Positions 10,204 through 37,410 of a stretch of DNA of 64,000 nucleotides are shown here, one piece after another. The stretch spans positions 4,154,001 to 4,218,000 of the forward strand of contig CM055823.1 of the NCBI GenBank assembly GCA_029582265.1. The letters are read 5' to 3'. The translations under genes were made by a program, and so were the position numbers. Origin of the DNA: Zoroaster sp. YZ-2022. Its lineage: Eukaryota; Echinodermata; Asteroidea; Forcipulatida; Zoroasteridae. The notes beneath the pieces were generated by a model, which did no database searches, was not told the DNA's origin, and was given only the letters and a program-made list of their open reading frames with translations. How positions within the stretch are numbered: position 1 is the first letter of the stretch; each line of letters starts with the position of its first letter.

Positions 10204-10234
<31 letters not shown>

Positions 10235-15109: not shown

Positions 15110-15320
15110 TATTATTTTCTTTAATAACCCTTTTTAATAATTTATATTTATTTTTCTTGTTTTATTTTTATTTGATATTAATCCACTTTTACATAGATCC
15201 ACAAAACAAAATATTATCATTTTCATCATAATTTTTTTAAATTTTGATTTTTTTTAAATTTTTTTTATTTATGTATTTTTTTTAATTTTTATTATTATTA
15301 TTTTGTTATATATATATTTT
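15110..15320. repeat. AT-rich low-complexity stretch
   Basis: Runs of T and A with TTTTATTTTTATTTGATATT-like sequence and a short TATATATATA. Nothing coding seen. Confidence 0.8.
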
Positions 15321-15744
15321 TAAAATTTAACCTTAGAACACACAACCCTTTTACCCTTCTTAATCAGATTTTACAACTTATAATAATAAATCATACAACA
15401 CATCTAACATTAAATATTCGTATCCACAACCCACTATTTTGTTGGTATAATTTTTCTTCCTTTCGTGCCGAGTTTGACAAAGTCTGAATCTTTATAATCA
15501 GTCGTCACTCTCATTCTACGCACTTCTTGGAATAGTTTTAATCCATTTGTCCACGGTGATAGAATTAACGTTTTTGCATATCGTGAGATATGTTTAGGGC
15601 TAAATAAACCTTATGTTTATTTATAAGCATGGTGGTAGATCTTTGGTACAATGTATCTAATTAAATCCCTTGAATGGTAACAGCTGAAACAATACGTAGT
15701 TGTGTTGTTAAACTGAACACAAACAATACAATAAAAGCATGGCA

Positions 15745-16000
15745 AAGGCAAAAAATAAAGGTTTCCGGTTACCGGTTTCCCTTTTTATTTATTTTTATTT
15801 TTTAAAACTATGTCCAATTGCAGCCAAAATTGCTGGATCGTTTGGAATTCTGCCGTGCTGTGTTTTAAACAAAATAAAACAAACAAAGCGTCACCGCACC
15901 AATTCACCAATTTTGAAGCCGACCTATGACCAGAAACGTGTGGTATTTGCGAAGAGATCTGTGCACAACAGATTTTTCGTGATGTAACATAAGCCACGAT
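15745..16000. repeat. Dispersed repeat shared with 62600-62850
   Basis: AATTGCAGCCAAAATTGCTG, GGAATTCTGCCGTGCTGTG and TGACCAGAAACGTG recur at 62660-62830 with small changes. The 82-codon open frame here is not conserved in the other copy, so I treat it as chance. Family unknown. Confidence 0.6.
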
Positions 16001-16415
16001 AAATAAAAACTGTTGAAAGTATATAGGCCTACCTCCAAAAGGCTCCCAGTTGTTTCAGACACATACAAATTAAAACTGAACAGTAATTTTAATTTTGTTT
16101 AACGAAGTATTATTTAAAAACTTTCTTGAAAATTCGGGGTAGCAAACGAAACACCTTAATTAAACACGGTTCCAAAGTCCAAATTTTCTTCGTCCCTCAC
16201 CATGCTTCACTGACTACAATAATTTTTTTCACGGCTTACAAAATAACATCTCAACGTGTCAATAAAATGTGAAGTCATCGTACTTCTGTCGTCATCTTTT
16301 ATAGGGCGGAATAAACCGCGTGTTGACATATGTTTGTTTAACGAACTCGTTTTAAAATACGCTAAAGTCATAAACAGTAATACGTATTTCACACCGTTCA
16401 GAAAATTGTTTGGAA

Positions 16416-16421
16416 TATAAA
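16416..16421 (+). promoter_or_regulatory. TATA box of gene B
   Basis: TATAAA in the context TTTGGAATATAAAGATG. The next 25-35 bases (CATCTGATCACATCAGT) offer a start site near 16445, giving a 5' leader of about 100 nt to the ATG at 16546. Spacing is what a TATA-type promoter needs; no transcript seen. Confidence 0.45.
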
Positions 16422-16545
16422 GATGTCTACATTCATCTGATCACATCAGTTTGGAACATCTCACCTGTGACTTGCTACGCCGTGCATAGGGATAGTTCTA
16501 TCATAATCTGAAATTGACTTGACTTTTACGCACAGCATTTTCACA

Positions 16546-16630
16546 ATGATGGGTACAACAAGAATGACCGTCTTTGGCGTCGTTTTGCTACTTGTCTGTA
16601 TTTTCAGATTGGGGATAGCTGATGTTGACG
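16546..16630 (+). CDS. Gene B exon 1: signal peptide
   Basis: ATGATG starts a 28-codon exon. After MMGTTRMT comes a hydrophobic core VFGVVLLLVCIFRLGIA, then DVD, and the exon ends after one base of the next codon at a consensus donor (GACG/GTAAGAATT). This is a textbook secretory signal peptide with likely cleavage after GIA. The phase-1 end matches exon 2 exactly (G plus AA makes Glu). A TATA box lies 130 bp upstream. The gene codes for a small secreted peptide of about 83 residues, roughly 58 after signal removal; the function is unknown. I recognise no named family. Confidence 0.7.
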
Positions 16631-17169
16631 GTAAGAATTATTGTCATTATTGATTGGGCCCAATGCAAGTCTGTATGTATTGTTTATTTTCGCTTCGAAC
16701 CTGTGCGTGGGCATTTTCAGTGAAAACGACTCACACAGGAGGTATAAACGTTTGCCTGATTTGTGAGGCTTCTCTTAGCCACCATACTTTGTATATTGGA
16801 AATTTGGTCTGGTTCCAACACCCGCGTATACATGTATCACGTATTTCTCTGGGCTGGGAAAAAATTGTGCTATTAATTTTCCTTTGAACGGGCCAAATGG
16901 TCTCACCCTTCGCTGCTTCCTCGGCTATGAGCCTGGGTACATGGGTACCAATCATCAAAAGTCTCAAAAATAAATACTGAATTATGAGTGTTGTGAGTAG
17001 TGGCGTGGCGAAGGGGGGAAGGAGTCAGACACCCCTCTAGCCGGATTTTTTGGGGAAAATCGGAAAGTAGGGCTTTTGGGAGAATAAAACATAAGACACA
17101 AGACGAAGAAAAATATATTATATTATTTAAGGATTGTTGATTATTCCGACAGCCCATAATTCCAACGGC

Positions 17170-17360
17170 CAATCAGCGGCGTAGCCAGGACTTTTTCAGT
17201 GCGGGGAGGGTGAACAGGGGGCGCCGCAGGGGGTATGGGTTGGGTATGGCCAGATATAACCACACTTATCCGCTTAGGACTATACTTGTAAAACTGCTCG
17301 TTAACCCTGACCACCCCGTATCCTCCAAAATCCTCCAAGGGGCATTTTAGGGGGAAAAAC
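17170..17360. mobile_element. MITE end, GGCGTAGCCAGGA family
   Basis: CAGCGGCGTAGCCAGGACTT followed by G-rich DNA (GTGCGGGGAGGG) is the same end as the element at 35745-36226. The other end is not clear here. A second end-like phrase lies at 17580 (CCAGTAGCGTAAATGATTG then G run). No gene in 16631-17780. Confidence 0.5.
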
Positions 17361-17783
17361 GGCACTGTTTGAAATGGGTACTTTCACCTACTCAAATGGG
17401 GCAAAATTACGATCTGGCACGAAGTACAGGCCATACGTGCTGGATATGAAAGATCAACGAAAATGCATGGTGCATTTTGCAGATAAGGGCATGTTTCCAA
17501 AAGTGCACTGATGGATTTTGGATGATTCAGGAAGGTTCCTAGCCAGAATACCTAGGTGGTTAGGGTTAATATTGCTCCGACCAGTAGCGTAAATGATTGG
17601 GGGGGGGGGGGATTTTGACAGATATTTCGGAAGTAAAGAATGTTTATGATAAAGAATGAAATAAAGGAAAAACTAAATACATAGCTTATATTCCGACTGC
17701 CTAATACTAATTTTCCTTAGTCGGACAAACAATCCGATCGCAAAACTGACTTTTGTTAGAGATGTCTATTATTTCTGATATAT

Positions 17784-18223
17784 TGATTTAGTTTTGCCCT
17801 ATACCGACGTGTGTATAGCACTGTATATGCTTTCCGAGTGTCTGTGGAAAAAAAAACTTCACAGGCGATTTGGGCGGGACTCGAACCCACGACCTCCTGC
17901 TTACTATATTTTTATACATTTTTCTTTTCTTTTTTTTGTTTTTCGCCACTGCAATTTTGCTGTTTTGACAACAATTTTTTTTTCTTTCTTTTAAATGGCT
18001 TAATATGTATTTTTTAAATGCTTTTTGTATAGTTGTAATTGTAAGCAAGGTTATTTCAGTCACTTATGTGACTGCCAACCATGTTTTTTTTAAAATAAAC
18101 CAGAATAAATAAATAAATAAATAAATACTAGTGCAGACGTCTTAACCTCTCGACCTCCGAGCTTGCCGGATGTCGATTGGCTGGCTAGAATCCTATATAG
18201 CAGCGGGTGCCGCGATATTTATA
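17784..18223 (-). mobile_element. tRNA-derived SINE interrupted by a LINE tail
   Basis: Second copy of the 13206-13424 SINE: same ends (TGATTTAGTTTTGCCCTA and GCGATATTTATA complement side), same box B (GGGTTCGAGTCCCGCCC, minus strand). It is split at 17906/18126 by a younger insertion. Confidence 0.8.
17907..18125 (+). mobile_element. LINE 3' end inside a SINE
   Basis: A 219-bp insertion ending AAAATAAACCAGAATAAATA with an (AAAT)n tail, flanked by TACTA at 17902-17906 and 18126-18130. AATAAACCA before the tail matches the minus-strand LINE ends at 33722 and 42508. 5'-truncated, no coding sequence. Confidence 0.7.
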
Positions 18224-18479
18224 GTTGATGAAATTCTTGCGTCGGGTGATAAACAATTTATTTCATTTTGCCCTGACATAGCAATGCTCAAATAGAATAT
18301 CCAGAACGGGGTAGTCTGCCCCTTCGTTACAGTATTTCATAATTATGGTCAGGCCATCTGTAGTCTATGTGTGGTTCTGAATTGACAAAAATAGGCCTAT
18401 TGATGATTCTTTTTTTTCCAGTTAGATCATTTGACCCAAAGAATACAGTTAAATATCCCATTTTAACAAATCAATCCGC

Positions 18480-19270
18480 CCGGAAGCCCATACACACACA
18501 AAAATACACAAGTTGTGTAAAATTTTACTATTTTGCAATGTTGTATACGAACCTCCTAATTGTTTGGTAAAGTTTTACAAAATAAGTGTTTGGTAAATTT
18601 TTTCATAAACATTTTGTAAACTTTAATTCAAAAATCAGTAAAAAGATTTACCTCTTAAAAAGGTAAACATAAATGATGTAAATTGTTACTGAATGTATTG
18701 GTAAAAAATACTAAATTTTCGTGTAGAATACTAGACTCTTTTTACTATTTGACCTTGTAAACTTTTACTACATTGTTTGGTCTGCATAATTCATTACATA
18801 TTTATTAAATAAAAATAATGTAAATGAAACAAGGCACCCCACTATACTTGTACAGTTTCAAAAACGTTTCTTTTATTTATTATCAATAAAATGAAAACAT
18901 CTCTTCAAATCCCCACTTCACGAGGTTCTCTCTCATTTACTCCATGTTGTGAGGCGATTGTCGACTTGACAGGCACACACTGCTTTTGCACACACGTCGC
19001 GCACACACAATGCATGATCACATGGTGGGCTTTCCACAATTAAAAGTGAATTTTTACACAACGCACGGCAATGCTCAAGTTCCTTGTGGTAAAAGTTACA
19101 CGGGCCAGGTAAAGACTTGAATTAGTTACATAAATTATGTCTAAATAAAATTTAATACATTTAAATTACGTAATTGTTTAACTTACACAGCAATTGTGTT
19201 CTTTATTTTCCCGAAATTTTACCTAAATTGTGTAATATTTTACAAAACATGTTTTACCCATTTTTTTTAC
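18480..19270. repeat. AT-rich block with repeated GTAAA/TTTTAC words
   Basis: Phrases such as TTGTGTAAAATTTTAC, GGTAAAGTTTTACAAAATA and GTGTAATATTTTACAAAACA recur in both orientations from 18500 to 19255, suggesting decayed inverted-repeat elements. No gene or clear ends. Confidence 0.4.
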
Positions 19271-19555
19271 CATTCATTTTGTTTGTGCATAATTCAAACA
19301 ACTTATTACGTTTGGATTTCGAAAAAAATGTTCAGAAATGTTTGGATTTCGAAAGAAAAAAAATCAGAAATGTTATAATTTCTTACAAAGTGAACAGACT
19401 ATGTAGAGTAAGTTTAAGTCGATTCGCTTAGTAGATAGATAATAGGCTGTACAAATAGAAAAGGAAAAATAAATGAAAAAACATTTTTTGTTTATTTCTT
19501 AAAAAGAAAAACGTGATTCCCTATTGGATATGAAAATGTCACCGTTTAGTTTTAT

Positions 19556-19783
19556 TATATGTGATGTGATCTGGAAAACCCTTCAGAACTTAAAAGCTTG
19601 ATTTCTCAAAACGAGGTCAGCTGGTTTTTCGAACTTACTGAGAGCGTAAGTTATATACAACCAAGAATCCTGAATAAAACAATTTTGAAATAAGCACAGT
19701 GTCCTCATTAATTTGATGTATTAAAACACAAACATTACAAATTTCACCATGTGAAGGGTTTCCCAGATCACATCACATATATT
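19556..19783. mobile_element. MITE with about 28-bp terminal inverted repeats
   Basis: Left TATGTGATGTGATCTGGAAA then ACCCTTCA; right TGAAGGGTTTCCCAGATCAC then ATCACATA. Flanked by TATTA on both sides. Inside is AT-rich and non-coding. Confidence 0.75.
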
Positions 19784-20109
19784 AAAAAACAGAGAATAGA
19801 GAATAGAATTAAAACAGAGAATAGAAATTAACATACGTTTTCTAAACGCCAATGTTATTCCTGTCGTTTAACAGGAAAAAAAACACTCCTCCAAAATAAA
19901 CAAACAACACTGACAATAAATTAACGTGACAATATGGTTTAGCTTTTATTTTGGTTGTAACTCGGAAAACTTTGCTTGTCTCTGCCCCCCCCCCCCATTG
20001 GAAAATTCCTGATTATGAGCACATAGATAGGTACGTTGTTGCTACATTTTCATTCACCAATGTAAGAATGTAAGTACAAATAGACCCAAGTGTTGGTGAG
20101 TGCTTTCCA

Positions 20110-20421
20110 TTAAAACCCTAACCCTCCAGGGTATTTTGGCTAGAAAGCCTGCCAAACGCAGCAACGTGCACCATTTGTCAAAACGACAAGCCTGCCCAGT
20201 GCAGCAAGATCCATCTGGTCACAAATCTCAAGGCCGAACTGCCTCAGAGTATGTGGTCACCAAACGCAGCAGGATACAACTCTGGCATTGTTCAATGGGA
20301 CCAGCTCTCAATAGCCTCAGACTTGGCTGCTTATGCACTGGTGTTGACAGCTGAATGTATCAAAGTGCACCAGACTTTTCCACCTGATGCACTGTGCTGC
20401 GTCTGGCAGGGTTAGGGTTAA
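20110..20421. mobile_element. MITE with AACCCTAACCCT ends
   Basis: Left TTAAAACCCTAACCCTCCAG and right CTGGCAGGGTTAGGGTTAAA form inverted ends. The telomere-like CCCTAA words are part of the inverted repeat, not an interstitial telomere. The 84-codon open frame inside is chance. Beyond it, 20620-20710 has (TAT)n and GGCCAAAGGTTGACCATCCC, a likely transposon end. Confidence 0.65.
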
Positions 20422-21407
20422 AAAAATTCTAATAATATTATTCATATGTACTTTATGTACTTTTTAGCAATGGGTACAGGATGGCATAAACATATGGTTC
20501 ATGTTTTTTATTACATAAGTATTACCAGCAATTTAGCGTCAAATAGTATGCTACGTGTACTTTTAAAATTGGCATTGCATTTGCACATGCAGAGAGGTTA
20601 ATATTTTTTAGCGAAAATAGAGGCAATTGTTATTATTATTATTATTTTCTTGAAGAGGTTTCGCGAGCCGCATTAAGACCCTCAACGGCCAAAGGTTGAC
20701 CATCCCTGTCTTAGACATAGTCAATTGTCACCGCCAGAGGGATTTGATGTGCAAACATCGGATAAGGGCCACATATATCTAATTCAAAATAGAAACCAAA
20801 ATTAGATTGTTTGACCATCTCTTTGCAATACTTTCATTCAATGTGTCATACTTTTCTTTACATTGTATTGTTGCAGGGAATTCGTAATTTTTAAATAGTT
20901 TTTTTTGATTTGCAGCAAATTTACATTAAGTAAAAATAGTATTGGTATTTTATGTACATACGTCACAAGGTTTATACATTGATTTAAACAAAAGCAAGAT
21001 GGCACAGGGGAAACGTGTTATACACAAGCTTTCATTTTATCACTTTTAACAGTTGTTAATGTAATAGTTGATAAAGAGTCTATTCCTTTCACCCACAAAT
21101 CAGCCACCGACTTTGTACATTTCTGAATCAATATTTAGGTCGTCTTAAGAATTGTACATAATTTATTTTCTAAAATCAAATTATTCATCTAGAGAAATTA
21201 ATGTAGCTAAAGAAACAATGGAAGTAAATACGTGCGCTGTGCAAAAACTACAAACAATTATCATCTTATATTTCATTAAAATGATTGGTCCTTTTGTTAT
21301 CTATGCAAAATTAGAGAGTGTAAAACAAAAGTGTTCCTCGCTACGTAACTATGTAAAATATATTTGTTTTCTTTGACGAAAGAATATTTAATTTTTTTTT
21401 TCCACAG

Positions 21408-21436
21408 AAGAACGTGCAACGTCTGAAATGCTATCC
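21408..21436 (+). CDS. Gene B exon 2 (EERATSEMLS)
   Basis: A very strong acceptor (AATTTTTTTTTTCCACAG) precedes 29 nt that end at GTAAGTAGTC. With the last base of exon 1 it reads Glu-Glu-Arg-Ala-Thr-Ser-Glu-Met-Leu-Ser and leaves phase 0, from which all later exons are multiples of three. It is acidic and directly follows the signal peptide, so it may be a short propeptide or N-terminal arm. Confidence 0.65.
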
Positions 21437-21767
21437 GTAAGTAGTCCCAAGAGTAAGATATAATGCATGATAAGAAAATACAACGAATACAAAACTTAAA
21501 TAATAAGATAAATATATCTTAACATAAATTAAATGCTGCATGATTTCCATCATTGATTAATTTTGAGACATATTTACTGTAAATCCATGATTATATGCTG
21601 ATTATTTTGAGAAATGTGACAGGTTTATTTCCCCTTTCCTCAAGTGAAACAGTGATGTTACATTAAAACAAAACAAAAAAGCTTTGAATAAGGGAATGAC
21701 AGTTTGTCAGATTAATGACTGGTTTTGGGCGTAATCACGAGCGCCAAGGACCATGTTTGGACAAGAC

Positions 21768-22016
21768 GTTATAATTCGTCCCTAATTTGCAATAGTGACC
21801 AATCCTGAATTAAGTTGCGGTATTGGTCACTTTGCCAAATTACAAAAATAGCCAGTTAGAGCATTCGTCATTTGAATGCATGCTCTATCTCCAAAACTAT
21901 AAGGAATACATGCATGTGGATTAGATACAATGGTAGGTCTCTTCCTGAATGTACTAATGGGCGAGAAAACTTTAAACTGAAAAAAGTGGTCACTATGGCA
22001 AATTAGCGACGAATTG
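21768..22016. mobile_element. MITE with AATTCGTC ends in gene B intron
   Basis: Left ATAATTCGTCCCTAATTTGC then AATAGTGACCA; right TGGTCACTATGGCAAATTAG then CGACGAATTG. Length about 250 bp, ending only 70 bp before exon 3. Confidence 0.7.
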
Positions 22017-22085
22017 TTACCGTTATATTTTGCTGATTTCTCATGTTTTCTTTTTCTTTTTTCCCATTATTTCCTTTTTCGACAG

Positions 22086-22100
22086 GGTCAGATAGACATA
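22086..22100 (+). CDS. Gene B exon 3, 15 nt (GQIDI)
   Basis: GGTCAGATAGACATA is enclosed by an excellent acceptor (CCATTATTTCCTTTTTCGAC then AG) and a consensus donor GTAAGTATGA. Phase 0, Gly-Gln-Ile-Asp-Ile. Very short exons need strong flanking sites, which is what is seen. Confidence 0.65.
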
Positions 22101-22517
22101 GTAAGTATGAACAGTATGTTTTATGAAAACAATAGTTTGAATTTCATGGTACGCCATTATATGCGCGTTACCAGAGGCTCGGGTGGGAACCCCCTTTATG
22201 GACAAAATTATTATAATTTATTTAAATCATTTACAATTAACTCCTGCAATTACATTTTCCTTAATCATATGTTGCATCCCCCAATCGCTAAAATCGCAGA
22301 GCTTTTTGGGGTGAAGCGGTCTTACTTTTAGTAAATATTAGTAAATTATTGCCAAATTGTTTTCTCTTGTTTTCGTCAATTCAATTTTCTCGATGACGAC
22401 ATAAATGAAATAAGCTTAATCTATAGGGATGGTCTCTGTATATATTTCTTATGGATTTCATTTAACTAAAAATTGTATACTCGTTTGTCATTTATTTCAA
22501 TTTTGCTGACTTGATAG

Positions 22518-22526
22518 GGAGCTCAG
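22518..22526 (+). CDS. Gene B exon 4, 9 nt (GAQ)
   Basis: GGAGCTCAG, phase 0 (Gly-Ala-Gln), lies between acceptor TTTGCTGACTTGATAG and donor GTAAGTAAAT. The pyrimidine tract (TTTATTTCAATTTTGCTGAC) is moderate. Size and phase fit the series; a chance pairing of sites cannot be excluded without cDNA. Confidence 0.5.
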
Positions 22527-22555
22527 GTAAGTAAATATTTTGTCGCTGTTCGTTA

Positions 22556-22895
22556 TTATGAGAGGGGAGAGGGGAGAGGGGAGAGGAAGAAGAGAGAGGG
22601 AGAGGGGAGAGGGAGAGGGGAGAGGGAGAGGGGAGAGGGAGAGGGAGAGGGAGAGGAGAGAGGGAGGAGAGGAGGAGAGGGAGAGGGAGAGGGGAGAGGG
22701 AGGGAGGGAGGAGGAGAGGGAGGGAAGAGGAGAGGGGAGTGGAGAGAGAGAGAGAGAGAGGGAGAGGGGATAGGGGAGAGGGGAGAGGGAGAGGGCAGAG
22801 GGGAGAGGGAGAGGGGAGAGGGAGAGGGAGAGGGAGAGGGGAGAGGGAGGGACAAGGGAGAGGGAGGGACAAGGGAAGGGGGAGGGGAAGAGGCA
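22556..22895. repeat. GGGAGA purine tract, about 340 bp
   Basis: Nearly pure purine (GGGGAGA, GGGAGG) on the plus strand, starting 30 bp after exon 4. It gives long Pro/Leu/Ser or Arg/Glu/Gly frames that are artefacts. Likely triplex-forming and hard to assemble. Confidence 0.95.
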
Positions 22896-23044
22896 GAGGA
22901 TACTTCTGATAGCAGTTTGGCCAACATTTCCAATGCTGTACCTTCACTTTATACAGTATTCAATAGTGAATGCCAGTTTTGTATTAATTTGTTTTTTTAA
23001 GTAGTTGTAACTTGCACGACAACATAAGTTTTGTAATTTTTTTT

Positions 23045-23350
23045 TAACGCAAATCGCCCCACACAAGGCCAATGGCCAATCCAAGGTGGGGGCTACTAAG
23101 TCATCGAGTTGTTACAACAACTCCACACTGAAGAACCGGCCCCTCGCACCGAAACAAGACAAGTTAATAACCAGCCTCTTCACGGTGCGAATAGGACTGG
23201 GAGGGGTAACTAGTCCAGAACAAGGCAGTTGTTAAACTGCCTCTGCCCCTATAAGCAATTATGGTAAAAAGTGTCTTGCTCAAGGACACAAGTGTCACGA
23301 CCAGGATTCCAACCAACATTGTCCATCTAACACCAGAACTTGAGTCCGGT
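23045..23350 (-). mobile_element. tRNA-derived SINE, degenerate
   Basis: Minus strand contains GGTTGGAATCCTGGTCGTGA (decayed box B) then ACACTTGTGTCCTTGAGCAA and GACACTTTTTACCATAATTG, the domain shared with the SINEs at 49961 and 59501. The 3' side (23045-23160) differs from those copies. Confidence 0.6.
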
Positions 23351-23505
23351 AAAGTACGACACAATTACATTTTCTTTTATTTAAATTTATTTCTTTTATT
23401 TACATATAATTATTTTACTTCATGATATTTCGCTCTCTGAATATTATTTTGATTTATGTCTATTTATTTATTTCTTTATCTTTCTTCGGAATTTTGGTAA
23501 AACAG

Positions 23506-23508
23506 AGG
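23506..23508 (+). CDS. Gene B possible 3-nt exon (R)
   Basis: AGG (Arg) lies between TTCGGAATTTTGGTAAAACAG and GTATGTATAC. If real it adds one arginine next to the QCQ exon. Three-nucleotide exons exist but are rare, and a recursive splice or chance site is as likely. The frame is unaffected either way. Confidence 0.2.
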
Positions 23509-23560
23509 GTATGTATACAATTTTAAATGTGATTTAATTTTTATTTCTAACTAAAATAAG

Positions 23561-24740
23561 TAAGATTTGTAGCTTTGCACGGTGAAAAGGATAAGTAAAG
23601 ACTGTTTGCTGTGACACCATGTAGTTAGATTTGTAGCTTTGCATGGTGAAAAGGATAAGTAAAGTCTGTTTGCTGTGACACCATGTAGTAAGATTTGTAG
23701 CTTTGCATGGTGAAAAGGATAAGTAAAGTCTGTTTGCGGTGACATCATGTAGTAAGATTTGTAGTTTTGCACGGTGAAAAGGATAAGTAAAGACTGTTTG
23801 CGGTGACACCATGTAGGTAAGATTTGTAGCTTCGCATGGTGAAAAGGATAAGTGAAGGCTGTTTGCGGTGACACCATATAATAAGATTTGTAGCTTCGCA
23901 TGGTGAAAAGGATAAGTGAAGGCTGTTTGCGGTGACACCATATAATAAGATTTGTAGCTTCGCATGGTGAAAAGGATAAGTGAAGGCTGTTTGCGGTGAC
24001 ACCATATAATAAGATTTGTAGCTTCGCATGGTGAAAAGGATAAGTGAAGGCTGTTTGCGGTGACACCATATAATAAGATTTGTAGCTTCGCATGGTGAAA
24101 AGGATAAGTGAAGGCTGTTTGCGGTGACACCATATAATAAGATTTGTAGCTTCGCATGGTGAAAAGGATAAGTGAAGGCTGTTTGCGGTGACACCATATA
24201 ATAAGATTTGTAGCTTCGCATGGTGAAAAGGATAAGTGAAGGCTGTTTGCGGTGACACCATATAATAAGATTTGTAGCTTCGCATGGTGAAAAGGATAAG
24301 TGAAGGCTGTTTGCGGTGACACCATATAATAAGATTTGTAGCTTCGCATGGTGAAAAGGATAAGTGAAGGCTGTTTGCGGTGACACCATATAATAAGATT
24401 TGTAGCTTCGCATGGTGAAAAGGATAAGTGAAGACTGTTTGCGGTGACACCATATAATAAGATTTGTAGCTTCGCATGGTGAAAAGGATAAGTGAAGACT
24501 GTTTGCGGTGACACCATATAATAAGATTTGTAGCTTCGCATGGTGAAAAGGATAAGTGAAGGCTGTTTGCGGTGACACCATATAATAAGATTTGTAGCTT
24601 CGCATGGTGAAAAGGATAAGTGAAGGCTGTTTGCGGTGACACCATATAATAAGATTTGTAGCTTCGCATGGTGAAAAGGATAAGTGAAGACTGTTTGCGG
24701 TGACACCATATAATAAGATTTGTAGCTTCGCATGGTGAAA
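23561..24740. repeat. 63-bp satellite array, about 18.7 units
   Basis: The unit runs AAGATTTGTAGCTTCGCATG, GTGAAAAGGATAAGTGAAGG, CTGTTTGCGGTGACACCATA, TAAT. The first five units (left end) are diverged from each other; from about 23820 they are almost identical, alternating only between GAAGGC and GAAGAC. Because 63 is a multiple of three and no stop falls in any minus frame, three overlapping frames of 286-399 codons appear; they are artefacts. The unit is the end of the Penelope-like terminal repeat family (compare 35205-35230 and 38462-38483) that has become tandem. It lies in a gene B intron. Confidence 0.95.
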
Positions 24741-24748
24741 ACAATTCA

Positions 24749-24836
24749 GAGTTGTAACCTCCAGTTCTTTTCAGAACTATAATTACTACTCAATTTGAGA
24801 ATTTCACATGGTGTTACCGCAAACAGTCTTTACTTA
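24749..24836 (-). repeat. Inverted terminal-repeat copy closing the array
   Basis: GTAACCTCCAGTTCTTTTCA, then CATGGTGTTACCGCAAACAG: the same core word as the satellite but on the opposite strand. The array is thus bounded by an inverted relative, as in the paired copies at 34735-35310. Confidence 0.7.
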
Positions 24837-25388
24837 AAACCAAAATGTTATTTACATGGTTCAGTCAATTTCCATTTATTTTTCGTTAAACCATGAACAA
24901 GTACCAGTTGCATGAATGTGAAGTACATTATTTGTTACGTCTTGGACCAAGACGTAGGTGTTTTATCAATCATGACGATTCCGTTGAAAGCGACTAATCG
25001 CTTTCCGCCGTTGAGGGTGACAGATCGCTGTCGATATTACCCACGGGTACGACAATGACACGACAAAAATTGCAATCGGTAAATTAAATGATGATAAAGA
25101 AAATATAATTCATGACGATGATACTATGTAATATTATTGTTCAAATAATAAAATGCTGTTCGTCATCAGTGCATGGGTCCCGTCCTGTGGCAGTTAATTG
25201 TTGTTAATCTAGACTTCTGGCAATTATTTTGTGAAATATATCATTCCTAAATATTAGTTATTCTATCTAAAAAGACATTCCCATATTCCTAAATTACCGG
25301 GAAAAAACACGAAAATCATGAGTGATATATCCTGTTAACGTTTTCTTTACTGTTTTCTTATTGTAATTCATCACATTACTTGGAGCAG

Positions 25389-25397
25389 CAATGTCAG
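25389..25397 (+). CDS. Gene B exon 6, 9 nt (QCQ)
   Basis: CAATGTCAG in phase 0, identical to gene A 2827-2835, with the same NAGNAG acceptor (an alternative start at 25386 adds one Gln) and donor GTAAGATATG. It provides the first cysteine; the second is in exon 8, seven residues later, so a small disulphide ring is possible. Confidence 0.55.
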
Positions 25398-25727
25398 GTA
25401 AGATATGAATATTTAACATGTTACATAATATCATGATTGAAGTTTTATCATTATCAAATGATATCGAAAGCATATCGATCCGATTGATGGATGTTTCATG
25501 AGGTTGCATTTTGTCAGATGAAATTTTGAGTTTAAATGTAAATGATAGCAAATAATGAAAGTTCAAGAAGATTTTTAACAAATGGAATTTATACCACTTG
25601 AAACAAAATTGAACATGAAATTATCTGACATGTTCACATTAATAACGTCTAATGTTTCTTCTTTTTCTTGCAAACAATTTACGTATTTATTTTATATTCT
25701 CTTTTACAAAACCATTGCACTGTCCAG

Positions 25728-25739
25728 CTGGACTCAAGG
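25728..25739 (+). CDS. Gene B exon 7, 12 nt (LDSR)
   Basis: CTGGACTCAAGG, phase 0, with acceptor CATTGCACTGTCCAG and donor GTAAGTAGTT. Identical in gene A, so this part of the peptide is conserved while the next two exons vary. Confidence 0.6.
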
Positions 25740-26028
25740 GTAAGTAGTTTTCCAGATTCTACCACAAGAGGGCGCGAAGTGGTTACATGGGAGAATACAA
25801 CTACAGAATTATATTTGTTTTTAGGTATCATAGTCTGTAACAAGGGATAGATACTCTTTAGGAGTAATAGACTCATACAGACCAGGTTTATACACTTCTT
25901 TACATTTAAAACGCCCTCTATTGGTCTTGGCAGCTAGTAATCTAGCCAACCACGAACCAGCATTAAATCCTGGAACAATAATCTTACCAAATTCTGTGAA
26001 TATTTTAAGCATTACTTCCCCAAAGTAC

Positions 26029-26105
26029 TAGATGTACACCGACTAGATGGACACCGACTAGATGGACACCGACTAGATGGACACCGACTAACACCGACTA
26101 GACAT
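26029..26105. repeat. 15-bp minisatellite (copy 2)
   Basis: About four units of ACTAGATGGACACCG; one T variant and one shortened unit. Counterpart of 4091-4150 with different unit sequence, showing independent homogenisation. Confidence 0.85.
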
Positions 26106-26980
26106 AATTCTATGTCAACAAACATGACATATGGTGCCAATTAGCTCTATGAACTTCTTCCTTAGTATACATTACGTCAGAGTTATATCGATGAAACTTC
26201 ACCCCCGCACATAGGATCAGTTACAGATGAAAATGCGCATGCGCGCAAACTCTGACAGCAGCCTATAATTATGAATACGCCGTATCGGGGGTACTGATGG
26301 GTGACGGCTGATGGAAGGCTGTTACAGAGCTTTTGTTTTACTGGTCCCCTTTAAACAAGTTTCGTTTGTCCATAATGAACGCAAAACAATTGTACTTTAA
26401 TTTATACACTCAAGCTCCGGTTACCGTAACCGACTAGTACAATTTAAAAGTTAATATATTGAGGGAAGGTAATTCATTTCTTAATCAAGTTACAAGTACT
26501 AAAGGGTTTAGTAACAAGTCGTATTAAAATAAACAAACAGTGAGTCAATCGCCTTGCTGTCATTTTCACTGTCATATAAGTATATTTCCAATCTCTCTTT
26601 GTAACCATGGTAATGAAAACAAGATAACAGTTTGAGTATTTTGGCTGAAGTTTTTTATTTGAATTGTTATTGTTTTTTATTTGTTGTTTAATTGAAGAAT
26701 GTCAACAAATCATTTCTGTTCATGTCAAGTCAAGTATGTCGGCCTAATTTCGTAATTTAAAGTAAAATGTGGCATGAGTTAGATTGAAGTCAAGTCACTG
26801 ACTTGAGTCAACATCTCTGGGCGGTAAACTTCTACCGATAAACCCTTCAACTTTGTCCATAAACGTTGCACCACATAAATGTGCAACACGCATCCAAGTT
26901 TGGTTTGTAGTCTTCTATTCATAAACTAATCTGTATTTCTTTTTATATCCTTGCTTCTGATGTTCCATTCTATATGAAAG

Positions 26981-26995
26981 AACTGCCAAGGAACG
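26981..26995 (+). CDS. Gene B exon 8, 15 nt, hypervariable (NCQGT)
   Basis: AACTGCCAAGGAACG, phase 0 (Asn-Cys-Gln-Gly-Thr), flanked by exactly the same intron bases as gene A exon 5545-5559 (acceptor CTATATGAAAG, donor GTAAGTTTCGCC). Almost every codon differs from gene A except the cysteine. Mutation alone would not stop at both splice sites. Confidence 0.7.
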
Positions 26996-27386
26996 GTAAG
27001 TTTCGCCTGTTTTTACCAGTATAGAACCCTTCTCATGTTGAGCCGTCTTAGTCAGATTCCATGATATAAGGAAGTCTGACTATAAGTGTCTCGGTTTGGT
27101 CACGTGAACGAAAGAAAAACAAAATGGCTGGACCAAGTCTATGATAAGGGTTGTTCTTGTCTTATAAGCATTGGAATGATTTGGGCGCCCTCATCGGTCA
27201 TTGGGCGCTCAAAATCGAACACAAATTTAGTTTTGTAGAAGTCAATTTAAACAATTTTCCTTCGACTTTTCTAGCAATTGCTAGAACATATAGCCTGGCA
27301 GCAACCCTAACATTTAGTCTGGATAATTATTCGACATGTTTACTTAAAAACGTCGTTGAGGCAGTGCCAATTACCGAAATATGACG

Positions 27387-27926
27387 ATGGCACGCTTACT
27401 GACAAATAACTACGATTGGAATATTAGTCCAACTTCTTAAAATGTTAAATATTCCTACAGTTACTCAGAGACGAGATTATTTTAATGGTATTTTAATGTA
27501 TAGGTGTTTAAATGGTACAGCCCCTAATTATATGTCTGATTTTATATCGACGGCTTCCGATTTTAATTTTTATAATACCCGTAATGTTCAAGCTAATATG
27601 TTATATGTTCCAAAACCTAGAGTGACACTTTTTAGACAGTCTTTTCAATATGTAGGACCTTCATATTATAACGAATTATATTACCAAATGTAATAAAAGG
27701 GGCTGGTGATATATTAAGCTTTAAACGTTCATTAAAAGATTATGTTTTAAATGTATAAAGACATCTGTAGCTACATTAAGTATTTAGTTATCTGTAGTAT
27801 CTATATATATCCCTTATTTTTGATATAGTATTGTATTACTTTTGTATCTCCTGGGCGCCTAGGAAGAATACCGGAAGGTAAATGGCCTACCAGGTTAAAT
27901 ATTTTGAAATAAATAAATAAATAAAA
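27387..27926 (+). pseudogene. CR1/L2-like LINE 3' end (RT C-terminus)
   Basis: Starts ARLLTNNYDWNIS, changes frame, and continues LKMLNIPTVTQRRDYFNGIL then MYRCLNGTAPNYMSDFI and SFQYVGPSYYNELYY, changes frame again and ends KGAGDILSFKRSLKDYVLNV with stop at 27756-27758. This is the typical C-terminal tail of CR1/L2-type non-LTR reverse transcriptases. It has at least two frameshifts and is 5'-truncated. The 3' end is an (AAAT)n tail at about 27908-27926. Duplication copy 1 lacks it, so it inserted into copy 2 within a gene B intron. Confidence 0.8.
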
Positions 27927-27939
27927 TAATCCCAACAAA

Positions 27940-28235
27940 TACTACTTGAGAAGCTGCATCTTCAAACCTCTTCATTCTCCTGACGAAGATTAGAGCTCAT
28001 CGAAACGTAGAGAAGTCCGTGTAAAATCCCCATGGTTCTCCCTGAACCACGTTCTCACTTAGCGATAGTTGAGAAACGAGTTGCCCGACATTAGTTCTCC
28101 CCTGAACCATACTCACACTTAGCGATAGTTGAGATACGAGTTGTGCAATAAGGTTTTTCACGAACCTGTATCTCACTCAGCGATATTTGAGATAAACACA
28201 TGATGTTACCACAAACCGAAACGATACTATTATAA
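27940..28235 (+). repeat. Penelope-like terminal repeat copy (copy 2)
   Basis: Counterpart of 6360-6730 with one inverted unit fewer. Includes CTCCTGACGAAGATTAGAGC then CATCGAAACGTAG and ends CATGATGTTACCACAAACCG, 28 bp before exon 9. Confidence 0.45.
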
Positions 28236-28262
28236 TACCTTTTCAATTAATTTCACCTGCAG

Positions 28263-28289
28263 GACTGGGAGAATTTGAACAAATTAAAA
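28263..28289 (+). CDS. Gene B exon 9, 27 nt, hypervariable (DWENLNKLK)
   Basis: Asp-Trp-Glu-Asn-Leu-Asn-Lys-Leu-Lys in phase 0 between TTAATTTCACCTGCAG and GTAAGTATTC. It differs from gene A (SWEDLAKLK) at three residues, all by first- or second-position changes, while the flanking intron is about 99% identical by eye. The Trp and the Leu/Lys spacing are kept. Confidence 0.75.
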
Positions 28290-28619
28290 GTAAGTATTCA
28301 AATTGCACATGTGTTCACTGACATGGTGACGTTATTATGATGTCACAGCGTTCCAAAAACGAATGCCCCGCTTCACCAAACAGAAACTGTTTTTATTGCA
28401 TGCAATTTTTCTACGACTTTTTTCCATTAAATATATTGCAGTTTCTGTAAGAATTGCCGAAATTCATGTATTGATCATTTGTAACAGTTACTATGATCCC
28501 TATTATACTTACTAGATAGGGATCATGTAATCGGTGTCTAACAAATGAATGAATCCACCACGAGGCCATTTTACTACTCCACAAATACAAATACCACAAA
28601 GGACAACAATGTAGTATGC

Positions 28620-28835
28620 AGTCAGCATAATCAAGACCATTGATTGCAATGCGTGGTTTATGAGAGTGGTAACATGGCACCCAGTGGCTTCAATGTAAGC
28701 GCATGACCCTCAATCCAGTCAGTATAATAGAGATCGGTGCTTGTAACGCATGGTTTATGAGAGTGGTAACATGGCACCCAGTGGCTTCATTGTTAATGTA
28801 TGATCCTCTATCCAGTCAGTATAATAATGATCAGT
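28620..28835. repeat. Minisatellite (copy 2), about 97 bp x 2
   Basis: Two units equivalent to 7134-7600: GGTTTATGAGAGTGGTAACA and CCAGTCAGTATAATAGAG. Confidence 0.85.
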
Positions 28836-29254
28836 GGCCAGTACCCACGATAGTTGTTTGTTATCTTAGTCTGAATTAACAAACTCCATTTCATCGGGTC
28901 CGAGGAACAGCCTTCCCAAGCTTAAAAATACACATAGAGGGCGCTATTTATTACAACCTCATTCCTTATCTTACTTTACAAAACAGGAAGAATATTTAAG
29001 TGAAGCAAGGGAAGGACCGACAGAATAGCCACCTTGAACAAGACCGTACAAATTGATGAGGTCATGCAAACGAAGGTATTCAAGACTTAATTATTATTTC
29101 GCGTAAGCACAACATGAAAAGAAAGATCTTGTTTTCCTTTCTGCCGGTTACACCACAAGTCCCATAGCCTGAGGAAACCTGTAAACAAGGGCGCTTGCTA
29201 TATGAACCAGAATCAGTTATTTTACGTGCATTACTTGAATAATCTTGTACATAG

Positions 29255-29370
29255 GACATGTCTTAACGTCCCATCCGAAGGACGAAGCAATTATATGCTT
29301 AAGTGTCTTGCTTACCGACACAAGTGCCGCAACCAGCCAGGCCGGGATTCAAACCCACATTCTAAATGAC
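29255..29370 (-). mobile_element. tRNA-derived SINE fragment (copy 2)
   Basis: Counterpart of 8010-8135, with box-B-like GGGTTTGAATCCCGGC on the minus strand. Shared by both duplication copies. Confidence 0.6.
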
Positions 29371-30122
29371 ATCGGTATTCGCCGAAGTATAAATGATCAC
29401 AGATTGAAATGACAATTATTTGCTCTAAAGTTGTTTAAAGTATCAAATATCTCTTGAAATATTATTTTATGTCTAAATGTGTTAAGTAAATTTAAATAAA
29501 AAACCAAAAACCAAAACAAACAAACAAACAAATTCCCTACCTTACCGTCAAAACCAATGTACATATTTGGTAAAATGTCTGTGAATGCATCCATACTTTA
29601 TAAGAATCAAGATATAATTATGTATATAAATTAACCTGTGAACAAGAAAATAGTGGAATATTTCAAGGAATGTTTGATACCATCATCAACTTTACACCAA
29701 GTAAGTTTATTTAAAACTTTCATTATCTATGTTTCTCGTGATCACTAAAATAATTGTACAATGATAGTGGTTTTTAATTAAACCATAATGTTTGTGTAAT
29801 TAACATTGCTGTAATGATGCTTCAAGAAATACCACATTCTAAAGGAACAGAGGACCATTTTTATTCAAACATTTTTATTTGTAAAATTCTTCGCAATTTA
29901 TTTCTGGTATATTGCTGTGTGCATTCTTGCTCCTGTTGCTATGCAAGTAATCCGAGAAGAGTTGCTTGTATGTCTTGTGCATATATTTTTTAAATTTTAT
30001 TTTGATTTTTAATTTTATTTTATTTTAAGCCACTATTTCATCTATAACTTGCGATTCATGTGTTGACATTTAGCAAGATTCGTTTATTTATCAGTACTTT
30101 ATTTTTTCTTTTTCTTCTTCAG

Positions 30123-30170
30123 GTACTTCTGTCCAAAGTCAACTTGGATTTTCTCAGTAGTTTTGTTTGA
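30123..30170 (+). CDS. Gene B terminal coding exon (VLLSKVNLDFLSSFV, stop)
   Basis: Acceptor TTTTTCTTTTTCTTCTTCAG precedes 15 codons and TGA at 30168-30170. One replacement from gene A (Asn to Asp, A9035 versus G30147). The C-terminus is conserved, unlike the two exons before it. In the +1-shifted frame (reached only if the 5-nt cassette at 28442 were used) the exon stays open to TAG at 30232-30234. Confidence 0.7.
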   Translation, partial: VLLSKVNLDFLSSFV

Positions 30171-30908
30171 AAGGATTGGATTATTTGTCGCAAAGAACAC
30201 TTTCTGTATGCTCTGCAACTTCTATCAAAAATAGGCTTAACCTAGATGACCCTTGAGGGCGCTATATCATAGAACATTGGTTGCGATGGGGAAAAACATG
30301 GCTGCTAAGTCCGTATTTGCTGGTGTGTGAAATCATTGTGTGTTCATTTTACATATGCAGTAAAGTGAAATATTTCATCCAAGAGCCATAGGCCTACATA
30401 TATAGAGTTGTGGTATAAAGAGTACCAACAACATGAGCACAACATGAACATTTAACGTTCCGTTGCACAGAGAAAAATTCACACACAATGGCTACACACA
30501 CCAGTATAACTAATTGTTACAACTCTCTATATACGACTATGGTACATTCCAATTATTTCGTTGAAAGGTTGCACAGGTAGCCAGTATATTAAGTATTCAT
30601 GCTACATCGGTTGCTTCACTTGAATGTTTCAGTTATTTTTTACCAACCTTGTTCTGATAGATCTTCTCTAAATTACCAATTTGTAATGATGGTGGAATTG
30701 TGAGTAAGATGGTGAACGTTTATGTCACCAACTGTTGGGATTTGGGGGTCTAATTTTGGGGTATAGAGTTAAAAGGGGAATACTACATTAGTCAGCATTT
30801 CCTACATAACTCGTGCTGTTCATTTAACTATATATTTAATTTAATGTGTTATTAACTACTTTCCCGTATATCTGTATTCACATGATATTATGTTTCGCAA
30901 GTTCTGGA

Positions 30909-30914
30909 AATAAA
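30909..30914 (+). promoter_or_regulatory. Candidate poly(A) signal, gene B
   Basis: AATAAA in GGAAATAAACCAGATTG, conserved in copy 1 at 11053. Gives a 3' untranslated region of about 750 nt. No other AATAAA between 30171 and here was noticed. Confidence 0.4.
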
Positions 30915-30926
30915 CCAGATTGAAAT

Positions 30927-31110
30927 TCAATGTTTGCTGTGTAGCATAGTTACATAAATTATTTAAATAACCTCATTAAACATTTTCCACCATCTAATAT
31001 ACGTATCAATGCTAATGGTTACCAGGGATGAGCAGTTTCTGCAGTAATTTGTTTGAAACAAAATGGCGGAATGAAGAGCCGTTTCAGCTAATACTAAAAT
31101 AAATAAATAA

Positions 31111-31142
<32 letters not shown>

Positions 31143-31630
31143 ATAGAAATAAAAACTAACAAACAAACACCTCAATGATAAGTTCATGTATGATTTTCGA
31201 GAGAATTAAATGCAACAGGAAGCGTTCCTGTTGTTTGTTTTCATAAAACTATTTTAACAATAACCATTCAAGCGATAAAACTCCGGCGACATGACCGCAC
31301 ACATTTCTCTGTAAATGGACCGTAAAGACATCACTGTGAATTGCCCTCAACTCGCAGCTAAAGTGCATTTCACAGCTAAATTGCATTTCAGGGCTACGAT
31401 ATGCATGAAGTGGTTAATCCATAGACAGACCTAAGACATACACGTACACGGTAATCCTTGTTGGTAGATGAGACGTAATTTCAACATAAACCACGCCCAC
31501 TTCACACGTGCTGGCTCCAACGATCATTAGAAGCCCATTGGAAATGCATTAACCACCCTTTTCTTTAAGGATTTACGCGATAAATAATAAAGATTAAGAC
31601 TTGCATAAAGACTCAAAATCTTAGTAACAA
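30927..31630. repeat. Copy-2-specific insertion of about 700 bp
   Basis: Absent between 11075 and 11076 of copy 1. Contains an (AAAT)n tract at 31098-31145 and CTCAACTCGCAGCTAAAGTG, with no clear ends or coding sequence. Could be a decayed retroposon, or ancestral DNA lost from copy 1. Confidence 0.5.
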
Positions 31631-31787
31631 AGTAAATTTCTGTCTCAAGAATCGCCTTTAAACGTTAAAAATCAAGGAATTTAGGTTAAATTAAACACAA
31701 TGGTATGCCAGTTTTGGAACCGGAAGTAACGAAAAGAATGCACATACTATCAATGTGTGTGCGTATTACATATCGATTTACGAACAG

Positions 31788-31980
31788 GGCCAATTTCATA
31801 GAACTACTAAGCTGAAAATTATATTTTTGCTAAGCAATAAAAAACCAGCAAAACCAGACTACCAGCAAAAATGCATACATTTTGTATGAAAGTTTGGCTG
31901 GTAACCAAAGAACTTTACTAAGCAAATTTTTCTGGTAAGCAATATTGTCTGCTTAGCAACTGTATGAAATTGACCCCTGA
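31788..31980. mobile_element. hAT-like MITE (CAATTTCATA family)
   Basis: Ends CAGGGCCAATTTCATAGAAC and TATGAAATTGACCCCTGACC form inverted repeats; the inside has TTTGGCTGGTAACCAAAGAA. Related copies are at 51690-51870 and 59845-59997 and a broken one at 11228-11290. Confidence 0.7.
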
Positions 31981-32974
31981 CCTTAATGATAAATGCAATA
32001 TCCACCACAATATACGAAAATACAGTGGTTAATTATTGTTCTCTTAATGTAATGACGTATACACAGTCATTAGTGTACATTTCAATGACATTGTCCAAAA
32101 TCACCTATAAGCCTATATACTTTACCAGTCTTTATAATATTTTCTCATTATATTTGAAGCTCTATTTAAAAAAAAGAAAATAAGAAAAAAGAGTACTGTG
32201 TCCGAAATTTAAAATTTACAAAAAATCTTGACGCATGTTCACTAGATTCTCGTTAAAATGATGTGACTTATCAACTGACAAAGCCACATATTGGTTGTAT
32301 TTAAATCTGGATTGAAAGAGAGTAAGCATAGATTATAGTTTTGCCTACATTTCAATAAACTGCACTGACCTAAATAGAGATGTGGACGACATTTTCCCAT
32401 TGAGTGGGTAACGGGGACTTCTTCCCTACCTCACAACGTTTTTGGTCTCGATATAAACATATATTGGGGGGGGGGGTACCCACAACTACAGAACAACTAC
32501 CTATGCGCACCTTCCCTTTAATTCAATATTGGGGGACGTGTTTGTGAAAGCATCATTGCTCATCGTGAAGAGAATTGTGCCGTTGGAGCTGACATGGAGA
32601 CTAGCCCACATTGACCAATCTACTCATTGATCAAACACTACCCTACGGCGTACGTTAAGTGGTTCTGTCAGCAGAGAAAGCGAATACATCAAAAACCCTC
32701 AAGGTATTTAGTGCTTCCATTAATCGAATAAATGAAAACAACACTTTATATTAACTTATTAGACACGTAAAGATTTTTGTCAAATGTAACAGGATTATTT
32801 ACCCAAACTGGCGCTATCACATCATTATTCCCCGAGTGAATAAGCAGAACATGACACGTATTGTACGGCTGGTCTCTTTCCTTTCCATTTCAAGAAGGTG
32901 TGGATTTGATCAAAGACAGTTCTAAAAGGGTTCTATAATAGAATCGACTGTTGGATGATGCGTTAACAATAGAC

Positions 32975-36284: not shown

Positions 36285-36357
36285 AAACTTGAATAATTTA
36301 TTTTATATTTTATTTTGATCTCCAAACAGAAACCCTTTGATTCGGTGAGCTGTCACT

Positions 36358-37410
36358 ATGGATAATATCTTAGAAAACGGAACCACCACTGGTCTACAAA
36401 ATTCACCAAATTCTACTGAGGATAACGTCACCGATAACGTCATAATGATGAATCCTAATCTGATCGGTGGTAGTTTTCAAAGTACTACCCTGAAGGTAGT
36501 GTATGCCATTATAGGTACTCTTGGAGTTGTCGGCAATGGATTGGTATGCGTTATATTTTTAACGCAGAGAAAGTCTTTTCGTTCGGTGACTAATATCCTC
36601 ATCTTGAATCAGACAATTATTGACTTGTTTAATGCTTGCATCTTTCTTATCTTACGGCTGTCTCCATCAATTAAAGAACTTCCTCAGACGTTACTAGGAG
36701 ATGTTATATGCCGACTCTGGGTATCAGAGTACATTATGTGGTCTCTCTTCATTGCGTCTACCATGAATCTTGTGCTGATGTCATTAGAGAGATATTTTGC
36801 TACGTGTTACCCCGTGAAGCATCGGTTTCATTTCACCTCCAGTAAGGCTAAGATCGGTATGGTGTTTTCCTGGCTATGGGGTTTCGTGTACCAACTTTAC
36901 TGGCTCATCATACGAGATTTCAAGGGTGGAATTTGCGGTGTAGGTTGGTCAAGTCCAACCCTCCAGAAGGTTATAGGGGTGTTTCTGTTTCTACTCGAGT
37001 ACCTTCTCCCATTAGGTATCATGACATTTGCTTACGTTAGCATCATTTTAATATTACGTCGACGTGGAGCAGACGGTAGAGTTATTAGCAACACTTTTCA
37101 ACGCGCGAAAAGAAATGTGACATTTACTCTGTGTTTGGTGTTTTTCTTTTACATTGTCTGCTGGACTCCAACTGAAATAACATATCTGTTATATAACTTG
37201 GGGTATCCTTATGATTTTGGAAGCTACACACATATGGTACTGACTGTGATGGTACTGCTTAATATGTCTGTTAATCCAATCATTTATACGATAAAATATG
37301 AACAGTTTCAGAGGCATTTGAAGAGGTTTTTCTGTACTAAATGTCGAGGAAATCGTGTGGGTGATGGATTGGCAGTAAATACGGTCCACATATCACAGAA
37401 TGTTCCTTAA
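36358..37410 (+). CDS. Class A (rhodopsin-like) GPCR, 350 aa, single exon
   Basis: Seven-helix plasma-membrane receptor. Extracellular N-terminus has N-glycosylation sites at N7, N18 and N23. TM1 about 47-69 with N60; TM2 78-101 with D89; TM3 from C118, ending with ERY at 144-146 in place of DRY; TM4 166-185 with W172; C193 in the second extracellular loop, disulphide partner of C118; TM5 205-233 with P218; TM6 254-279 with CWTP at 268-271; TM7 291-312 with NPIIY at 306-310; Cys pair 326/329 in the short tail may be palmitoylated. Length and motifs are those of beta/gamma-type peptide receptors, but I cannot name a ligand. The coding part is intronless. An acceptor-like TTTTGATCTCCAAACAG ends at 36329, so a 5' non-coding exon probably lies upstream. 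The ORF is intact. Confidence 0.93.
   Translation: MDNILENGTTTGLQNSPNSTEDNVTDNVIMMNPNLIGGSFQSTTLKVVYAIIGTLGVVGNGLVCVIFLTQRKSFRSVTNILILNQTIIDLFNACIFLILRLSPSIKELPQTLLGDVICRLWVSEYIMWSLFIASTMNLVLMSLERYFATCYPVKHRFHFTSSKAKIGMVFSWLWGFVYQLYWLIIRDFKGGICGVGWSSPTLQKVIGVFLFLLEYLLPLGIMTFAYVSIILILRRRGADGRVISNTFQRAKRNVTFTLCLVFFFYIVCWTPTEITYLLYNLGYPYDFGSYTHMVLTVMVLLNMSVNPIIYTIKYEQFQRHLKRFFCTKCRGNRVGDGLAVNTVHISQNVP

Follow-up and report, generated by a model that had tools for sequence, protein, structure and literature searches.

Organization of the duplicated block

The window, i.e., the whole stretch of 64,000 nucleotides analysed here (starfish Zoroaster sp. YZ-2022, assembly GCA_029582265.1, contig CM055823.1, positions 4,154,001-4,218,000 of the forward strand), has a G+C content of 36% and contains no N. 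It carries two copies of one block in the same direction (a direct repeat), the homologous blocks being interrupted by insertions private to each copy:

2363-13548 (+), duplicated block, copy A; left end truncated by mobile elements, so that the first exon would fall outside the window
25054-32966 (+), duplicated block, the portion of copy B with a copy-A counterpart

Plus-strand homology between the right flanks ceases at 13548 (A) and 32966 (B), beyond which only short or inverted repeat matches are found. The simplest reading of this layout is a tandem duplication, with the copy-B unit beginning after 13548; the first part of copy A then falls outside the window.

Several repeats and elements were found in or beside the block. 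Two adjacent elements (508-1551 and 1731-2361), with inverted ends that match by eye and rich in 'AAGCAATTGCT'-like repeats, separate copy A from its upstream part. Within copy A, an element bounded by inverted repeats (about 9396-10683) is inserted in the proposed 3' UTR and is specific to this copy, and a GAA run of approximately 170 bases (8324-8492) was not seen at the matching place of copy B. In copy B, about 1.2 kb of head-to-tail 64-base units (23534-24745), open in three minus-strand frames, lie inside the long proposed first intron, and an ORF that looks by eye like a non-LTR reverse transcriptase tail (27403-27693 (+); no Pfam match) is present in a proposed intron of this copy only.

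To the right of copy B, an intact single-ORF gene for a galanin/somatostatin-receptor-like rhodopsin-type GPCR (36349-37410 (+)) gave the sole Pfam match among the eight long ORFs scanned; its product shares 96% identity with an ENA contig protein, and 80% and 67% with galanin receptor 2b-like proteins from Asterias amurensis and Acanthaster planci, respectively. These matches mark the window as animal DNA of a starfish, with Asterias the nearest among the hits that carry a species name. Large self-complementary stretches occur at 40324-40735, 48316-48569 and 55987-56108, the second of them containing a borderline, likely spurious Rfam match to the histone 3' stem-loop.

Predicted gene model

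The predicted features of a gene with very short exons are listed below for copy B, where the model is the fuller, and then for copy A.

Copy B:
16416-16421 (+), predicted TATA box (TATAAA), 25 nt upstream of an initiator-like stretch at 16441; a prediction only
16546-16630 (+), predicted exon 1, signal peptide MMGTTRMTVFGVVLLLVCIFRLGIA-DVD, with a phase-1 end at GACG/GTAAGA
25389-25397 (+), predicted micro-exon CAATGTCAG of 9 nt (12 nt with an acceptor 3 bases earlier), identical in A; it ends at the top-ranking conserved donor of the block
25728-25739 (+), predicted 12-nt micro-exon CTGGACTCAAGG, identical in A
26981-26995 (+), hypervariable predicted 15-nt micro-exon, 7/15 bases different from copy A
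28263-28289 (+), hypervariable predicted 27-nt micro-exon, 7/27 bases different from copy A
30123-30160 (+), predicted terminal coding exon, with the best conserved acceptor of the block
30161-30931 (+), predicted 3' UTR, with AATAAA at 30909 and a putative end

Copy A:
2827-2835 (+), predicted micro-exon CAATGTCAG of 9 or 12 nt, identical in B
3565-3576 (+), predicted 12-nt micro-exon, identical in B
5545-5559 (+), hypervariable predicted 15-nt micro-exon, the most extreme of 787 conserved AG..GT segments when compared with its flanks
6758-6784 (+), hypervariable predicted 27-nt micro-exon, 7/27 bases different from copy B
9011-9048 (+), predicted terminal coding exon; the other frame stops at 9058
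9049-11075 (+), predicted 3' UTR, including the inserted element (about 9396-10683), with AATAAA at 11053 and a putative end

The predicted introns of copy B range from 0.3 to 8.8 kb, the first being the 8.8-kb one. In the terminal exon of this copy, the frame that fits exon 1 ends at TAG 30158-30160 and the other frame at TGA 30168-30170. Two further candidate exons were omitted from the model, as two copies are insufficient to judge them: a possible 36-nt exon at 5283-5318 in copy A (from 26698 in copy B), found in the scan of conserved donors, which follows a long T-rich tract, has one A/B difference and uses the donor GTATGT; and a 9-nt exon at 22518-22526, found in a splice-score scan of the first intron.

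A strict scan of both strands of the window for signal-peptide-like ORFs ending at a donor returned one ORF only, at 16546, with three in-frame ATGs. In 40 Markov resamplings of the region 12000-25389, the mean number of such ORFs was 0.05 and the maximum was one. The signal exon (16546-16630) is single-copy in the window, is located on the strand of the gene and lies upstream of copy B. A looser scan of 12000-25100 yielded three more ORFs (16622, 19249 and 23422), all with phase-0 ends; the ORF at 16622 overlaps the best candidate in a different reading frame.

When the proposed exons are joined, two frames stay open in each copy. The frame proposed in the earlier note reads QCQ-LDSR-(KCPAQ/NCQGT)-(SWEDLAKLK/DWENLNKLK)-VLLSKVNL(N/D)FLSSFV, and the second frame, into which the phase-1 signal exon leads directly, gives A-MSAGLKE-(MPGSELGGFSE/LPRNGLGEFEQ)-IKSTSVQSQL(E/G)FSQ. 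The predicted mature peptide comprises approximately 36 residues in either frame, with 0 or 2 Cys depending on the frame. The Cys, the Trp and the Leu/Lys spacing said to be kept between the copies are indeed residues of the former frame, but they are absent from the latter, which the best signal exon joins; the phase-0 candidates 16622, 19249 and 23422 fit the former. A choice of frame from codon-level counts was tried and abandoned: the two frames are about equal in silent and replacement counts, and hence the only argument for either is the phase of a candidate signal exon. On that phase we lean towards the second frame; the other could be restored by one of the looser signal exons or by an exon overlooked in the 8.8-kb first intron.

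Two rapidly changing segments

The alignment of A and B comprises 5263 columns, 344 of which differ (in a few stretches, overlapping blocks cause B to be counted twice). Below, clean denotes columns that lie outside the minisatellite and at a distance of more than 12 nt from any gap. Clean intron columns differ in 146 of 2992 cases (4.9%) and all intron columns, with no filter, in 302 of 4413 (6.8%), to which many indels and insertions are added; beyond the coding end on the 3' side, 17 of 595 clean columns (2.9%) differ.

Against this background, two segments stand out, and the differences reported for them, 7 of 15 and 7 of 27 bases, were reproduced on realignment at the same coordinates. 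Taken together they differ in 14 of 42 positions (33%), versus 146 of 2992 in clean introns (Fisher test, p ~1e-8), a rate about seven times that of the clean introns; the flanks are less divergent than the segments themselves. The other proposed coding exons are as conserved as the earlier note had it, with one difference in 69 positions. The quiet flanks were likewise borne out: there are 0/50 differences before and 0/25 after the 15-nt segment (4/50 after it when the flank is extended), and 1/45 aligned bases before and 1/100 after the 27-nt segment. The introns described as near-identical have diverged overall by 4.9-6.8% with many indels and contain, some 30 bases past the end of the 15-nt exon (~5588-5619), a stretch with 6/27 differences.

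The two segments are not equally strong. Among clean windows touching neither of them, the maximum is 5/15 (2973 windows of 15 nt) and 6/27 (2490 windows of 27 nt). In the unfiltered alignment, four places reach 7/15, and the three besides the 15-nt segment adjoin gaps or sit in the minisatellite; clusters of 6-7/27, or higher next to gaps, are present elsewhere in the block. Compared with its own flanks, the 15-nt segment gives p 3.2e-6, the most extreme value among the 787 conserved AG..GT segments (uncorrected for the 787). The 27-nt segment reaches only p 0.058 by this measure, its upstream flank being charged with a 5-base gap, and given the 6/27 intron cluster it would hardly stand out alone. 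The 15-nt segment is therefore exceptional by itself and the 27-nt segment mainly in combination with it. The observation of two fast-changing segments is real and was correctly measured.

Evidence for the predicted exon status of the segments

Splice sites were ranked among those conserved between the copies. Of 268 conserved plus-strand GT sites, the four proposed micro-exon donors take ranks 1, 2, 3 and 5, rank 4 (score 4.24) being located in the 3' UTR; the top three score 7.2, 6.33 and 6.33, versus 4.24 for the best of the 237 conserved minus-strand GT sites. The best conserved acceptor opens the proposed terminal exon, beyond which a conserved tail carries AATAAA. The acceptors of the micro-exons are weak: the score for the 15-nt exon is 1.4 in A and B alike, all four fall below 5 in one copy or the other, and the second-best conserved acceptor (5584) matches no exon in the model. 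In the 8.7 kb of copy A, GTAAG[TA] occurs six times on the plus and four times on the minus strand, where about six would be expected by arithmetic from the base composition. Since this number is what chance would give, the donors alone are no proof of exons.

The coincidence of donors and differences was evaluated by sliding the track of A/B differences against the donors over 5203 shifts. The 15 nt immediately 5' of the four donors contain 12 differences, a sum equalled or exceeded in 39 shifts, and the two densest of these stretches contain 11, equalled in five; by contrast, the 15 nt 3' of the four donors contain none in 60 positions. With stretches of 9, 12, 18 and 27 nt, the corresponding numbers of shifts were 335, 104, 51 and 152 for the sums and 182, 31, 9 and 37 for the two densest stretches. 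Thus, 15 nt is the best of the five lengths and 9 nt is marginal.

Could these segments instead be chance or complex-mutation clusters lying beside splice-like sites in non-coding DNA of the duplicated block? Other 6/27 clusters occur in the same block, the acceptors are weak, two open frames are weak coding evidence, and the protein search returned no homologue; moreover, a tally from the exon letters shows the changes to be evenly distributed over codon positions, as expected of non-coding DNA. Three observations speak against such clusters: the densest ones coincide with the best donors (the top two are equalled in 5 to 182 of the 5203 shifts, depending on length), the three top donors are strand-asymmetric, and a predicted signal-peptide exon lies upstream. 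We consider a non-coding origin unlikely, though of all the alternatives it deserves the most weight.

The earlier claim that the segments are exons gains from the donor ranking, the shift test and the predicted signal-peptide exon upstream, though not from the protein search, which gave no homologue. It is plausible, from the sequence, that both belong to a small secreted peptide gene, the predicted model being better supported than chance.

Silent and replacement changes and the mode of evolution

In the frame of the earlier note, the variable exons have 3.5 silent differences at 6.7 silent sites and 10.5 replacement differences at 35.3 sites (path averaging); in the second frame the values are 3.4 at 9.5 and 10.6 at 35.5, respectively. 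That nearly all changes replace amino acids had been taken as a sign of selection. Although 10.5 of the 14 changes are non-synonymous, so are 35.3 of the 42 sites, and silent change is raised too, which removes the force of the argument. The dN/dS comparison proposed at the same time was computed by NG86 for the two copies over all proposed coding exons and revealed no excess of replacement change in either frame (pN 0.133 vs. pS 0.164, and pN 0.151 vs. pS 0.154 in the second frame).

Strong diversifying selection by point mutation, the first of the two mechanisms proposed earlier, would mean that both micro-exons changed base by base within the same gene, with omega about 8-15 and no exchange of segments. 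The sevenfold rate relative to clean introns and the conservation of the other proposed exons are in its favor. In simulations starting from copy A (intron divergence 5%, kappa 2), omega of approximately 8-15 was needed for 14 changes to arise with any frequency at the intron clock, and omega of 10-15 yielded at least 14 changes in 23-80% of runs over both frames. However, silent change is raised as much as replacement change, and pN does not exceed pS. When only simulated runs with a total of 12-16 changes are counted, the silent count seen here had P 0.009-0.012 at omega 8-15 in either frame, i.e., about 1% of simulations; at omega 4-6, P was 0.016-0.062, so that the silent-site argument is weaker there. 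With silent sites above the intron clock, selection on point mutations fits worse than segment replacement, and we regard it as a doubtful explanation, only just behind non-coding clusters.

Exon replacement by gene conversion, the other mechanism proposed in the earlier note, accommodates the counts better than point change, but no source segment is found in the window. In the search for one there, the longest exact matches elsewhere are of 9-11 bases (a length given without a computed chance level). A weak match extends from 28272-28312 of copy B to 63355-63394 (+) (81% of 42 bases, E 0.024) and spans the 27-nt exon's 3' portion together with its donor region; besides it, the matches listed by flank and peptide searches of the window for a third copy were taken by eye for mobile elements. 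Block replacement of exon segments may thus be regarded as a better, though unproven, account than point change.

Raised silent change would also be accounted for if the copies were old, with introns and UTR kept alike by gene conversion and the divergent exons protected by selection, a mechanism argued for Hessian fly salivary genes in PMC2955719. Such conversion must, however, have left islands of 15 and 27 bases untouched between flanks that show 0-1 differences per 25-50 bases, and elsewhere the introns show an ordinary divergence of 5% and private insertions in each copy. Homogenisation of the surroundings thus appears improbable.

Finally, an artefact, in which A and B would be two alleles placed end to end or one of them would carry base errors, is very improbable: a divergence of 5% lies within the known range of heterozygosity of marine invertebrates and would be compatible with it, but the plus-strand homology of the right flanks stops at 13548/32966, the signal exon has no second copy in the window, which is free of N, each copy has its own insertions, and splice sites and open frames survive every change.

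Proposed mechanism and its implications

The reading that we tentatively prefer, short of holding it probable, is that the two copies are tandem starfish copies of a predicted micro-exon gene for a secreted peptide, exon segments of which were likely replaced as blocks, and that diversifying selection would favor the new versions. Here, a stretch of exon with an older divergence would have been imported as a block. A family of paralogues with alike introns may supply such segments through short gene-conversion tracts, and, the donor introns being alike (as in recent paralogues), the visible change would end at the exon borders. The swapped part of the mature peptide of approximately 36 residues might contact a changing partner, such as a microbe, a predator or prey, or a gamete, and new exon versions would be kept by diversifying selection. 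Since only two of the proposed exons have changed in this way and the rest stayed conserved, we infer that selection retains the variants; the changes considered come from two copies only and hence number 14.

A bolder version, which we offer as speculation and consider unlikely as a whole, is a starfish family of micro-exon cassette genes. In such a family, the 15- and 27-nt exons would be exchangeable cartridges put between fixed introns by short conversion tracts. The contact face of the peptide would be rebuilt several residues per step, and the signal, the scaffold and the splicing would stay constant.

Provided that the exons are real, a deuterostome not known to possess vertebrate-type adaptive immunity would have a secreted micro-exon gene whose exons turn over segment by segment. 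The unit of change could then be a whole micro-exon, the locus would offer a natural case for separating point selection from exon exchange, and a peptide would be named whose partner merits finding. Gene finders may miss such genes, as no annotated relative was found even though other starfish proteins are present in the database searched.

Comparison with known systems

Homology searches assigned the predicted peptide to no known family. With the predicted precursor (in the version with the 12-nt first micro-exon), the search of a general protein database, which contains annotated starfish proteins, gave no candidate sharing three 5-residue words; with the other frame, which was given an artificial N-terminus, one candidate shared words, and none scored at E up to 10. 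Neither four versions of the peptide in Pfam nor two versions among solved structures gave a match. No micro-exon secreted gene of starfish was found among the literature matches listed, judged by title or the start of the abstract.

Sea star bindin shows fast coding change under selection, and in work on abalone lysin exons reportedly evolve faster than introns. Fast coding change under selection, for bindin in a starfish, is what these proteins would share with the present case; proteins and gene structures are different.

The build of the predicted gene resembles that of the micro-exon genes (MEG) of Schistosoma mansoni, in which, according to PMC10526429, a signal peptide is followed by 10-20 very short exons (6-81 nt, usually a multiple of three and most often 15 nt) separated by long introns, the product is secreted, and isoforms arise mainly by alternative splicing of central exons. 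The likeness lies in the predicted exons of 9 (12), 12, 15 and 27 nt, the copy-B introns of 0.3-8.8 kb and the predicted secreted product. In contrast to the flatworm genes with their 10-20 short exons, the starfish gene has four predicted micro-exons, and the two are likened by build and not by sequence: neither frame has a homologue in the general protein database, candidates being selected by shared 5-residue words, and thus no sequence link to the schistosome MEG family was found. The bicycle genes of aphids, as PMC9168663 describes them, encode fast-evolving salivary gland proteins that are recognised better by gene structure than by sequence; they differ in being implicated as effectors of plant galls, and are likened by description only.

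Two other systems are comparable in the pattern of divergence. The genes for small secreted salivary gland proteins of the Hessian fly (SSSGP-1) are tandem genes with conserved introns and UTRs and a diversified mature coding region, as stated in PMC2955719. Relative to that account, the starfish copies are similar in being two tandem copies with alike UTR and introns and a predicted secreted peptide, and different in that the fly genes have one intron and vary over the mature region at large, whereas two of the five proposed post-signal exons vary here; the promoter and signal exon of copy A, which the family pattern would include, would fall beyond the window. The term ASSET (accelerated segment switch in exons) comes from viperid three-finger toxin genes, in which intron segments are alike and some exon segments are distinctly different, others being conserved, as a result of segments being replaced instead of point mutation (PMC2474615). 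Membership in the three-finger toxins finds no support, since the peptide has no Pfam or solved-structure match and has 0 or 2 Cys depending on the frame. The snake venom genes consist of three exons and encode a known fold, whereas the starfish exons are predicted ones of 9-27 nt, compared between two copies. The likeness to ASSET is that here, too, introns are alike and some of the predicted exon segments are divergent while others are conserved; in the starfish copies, silent sites are raised as well.
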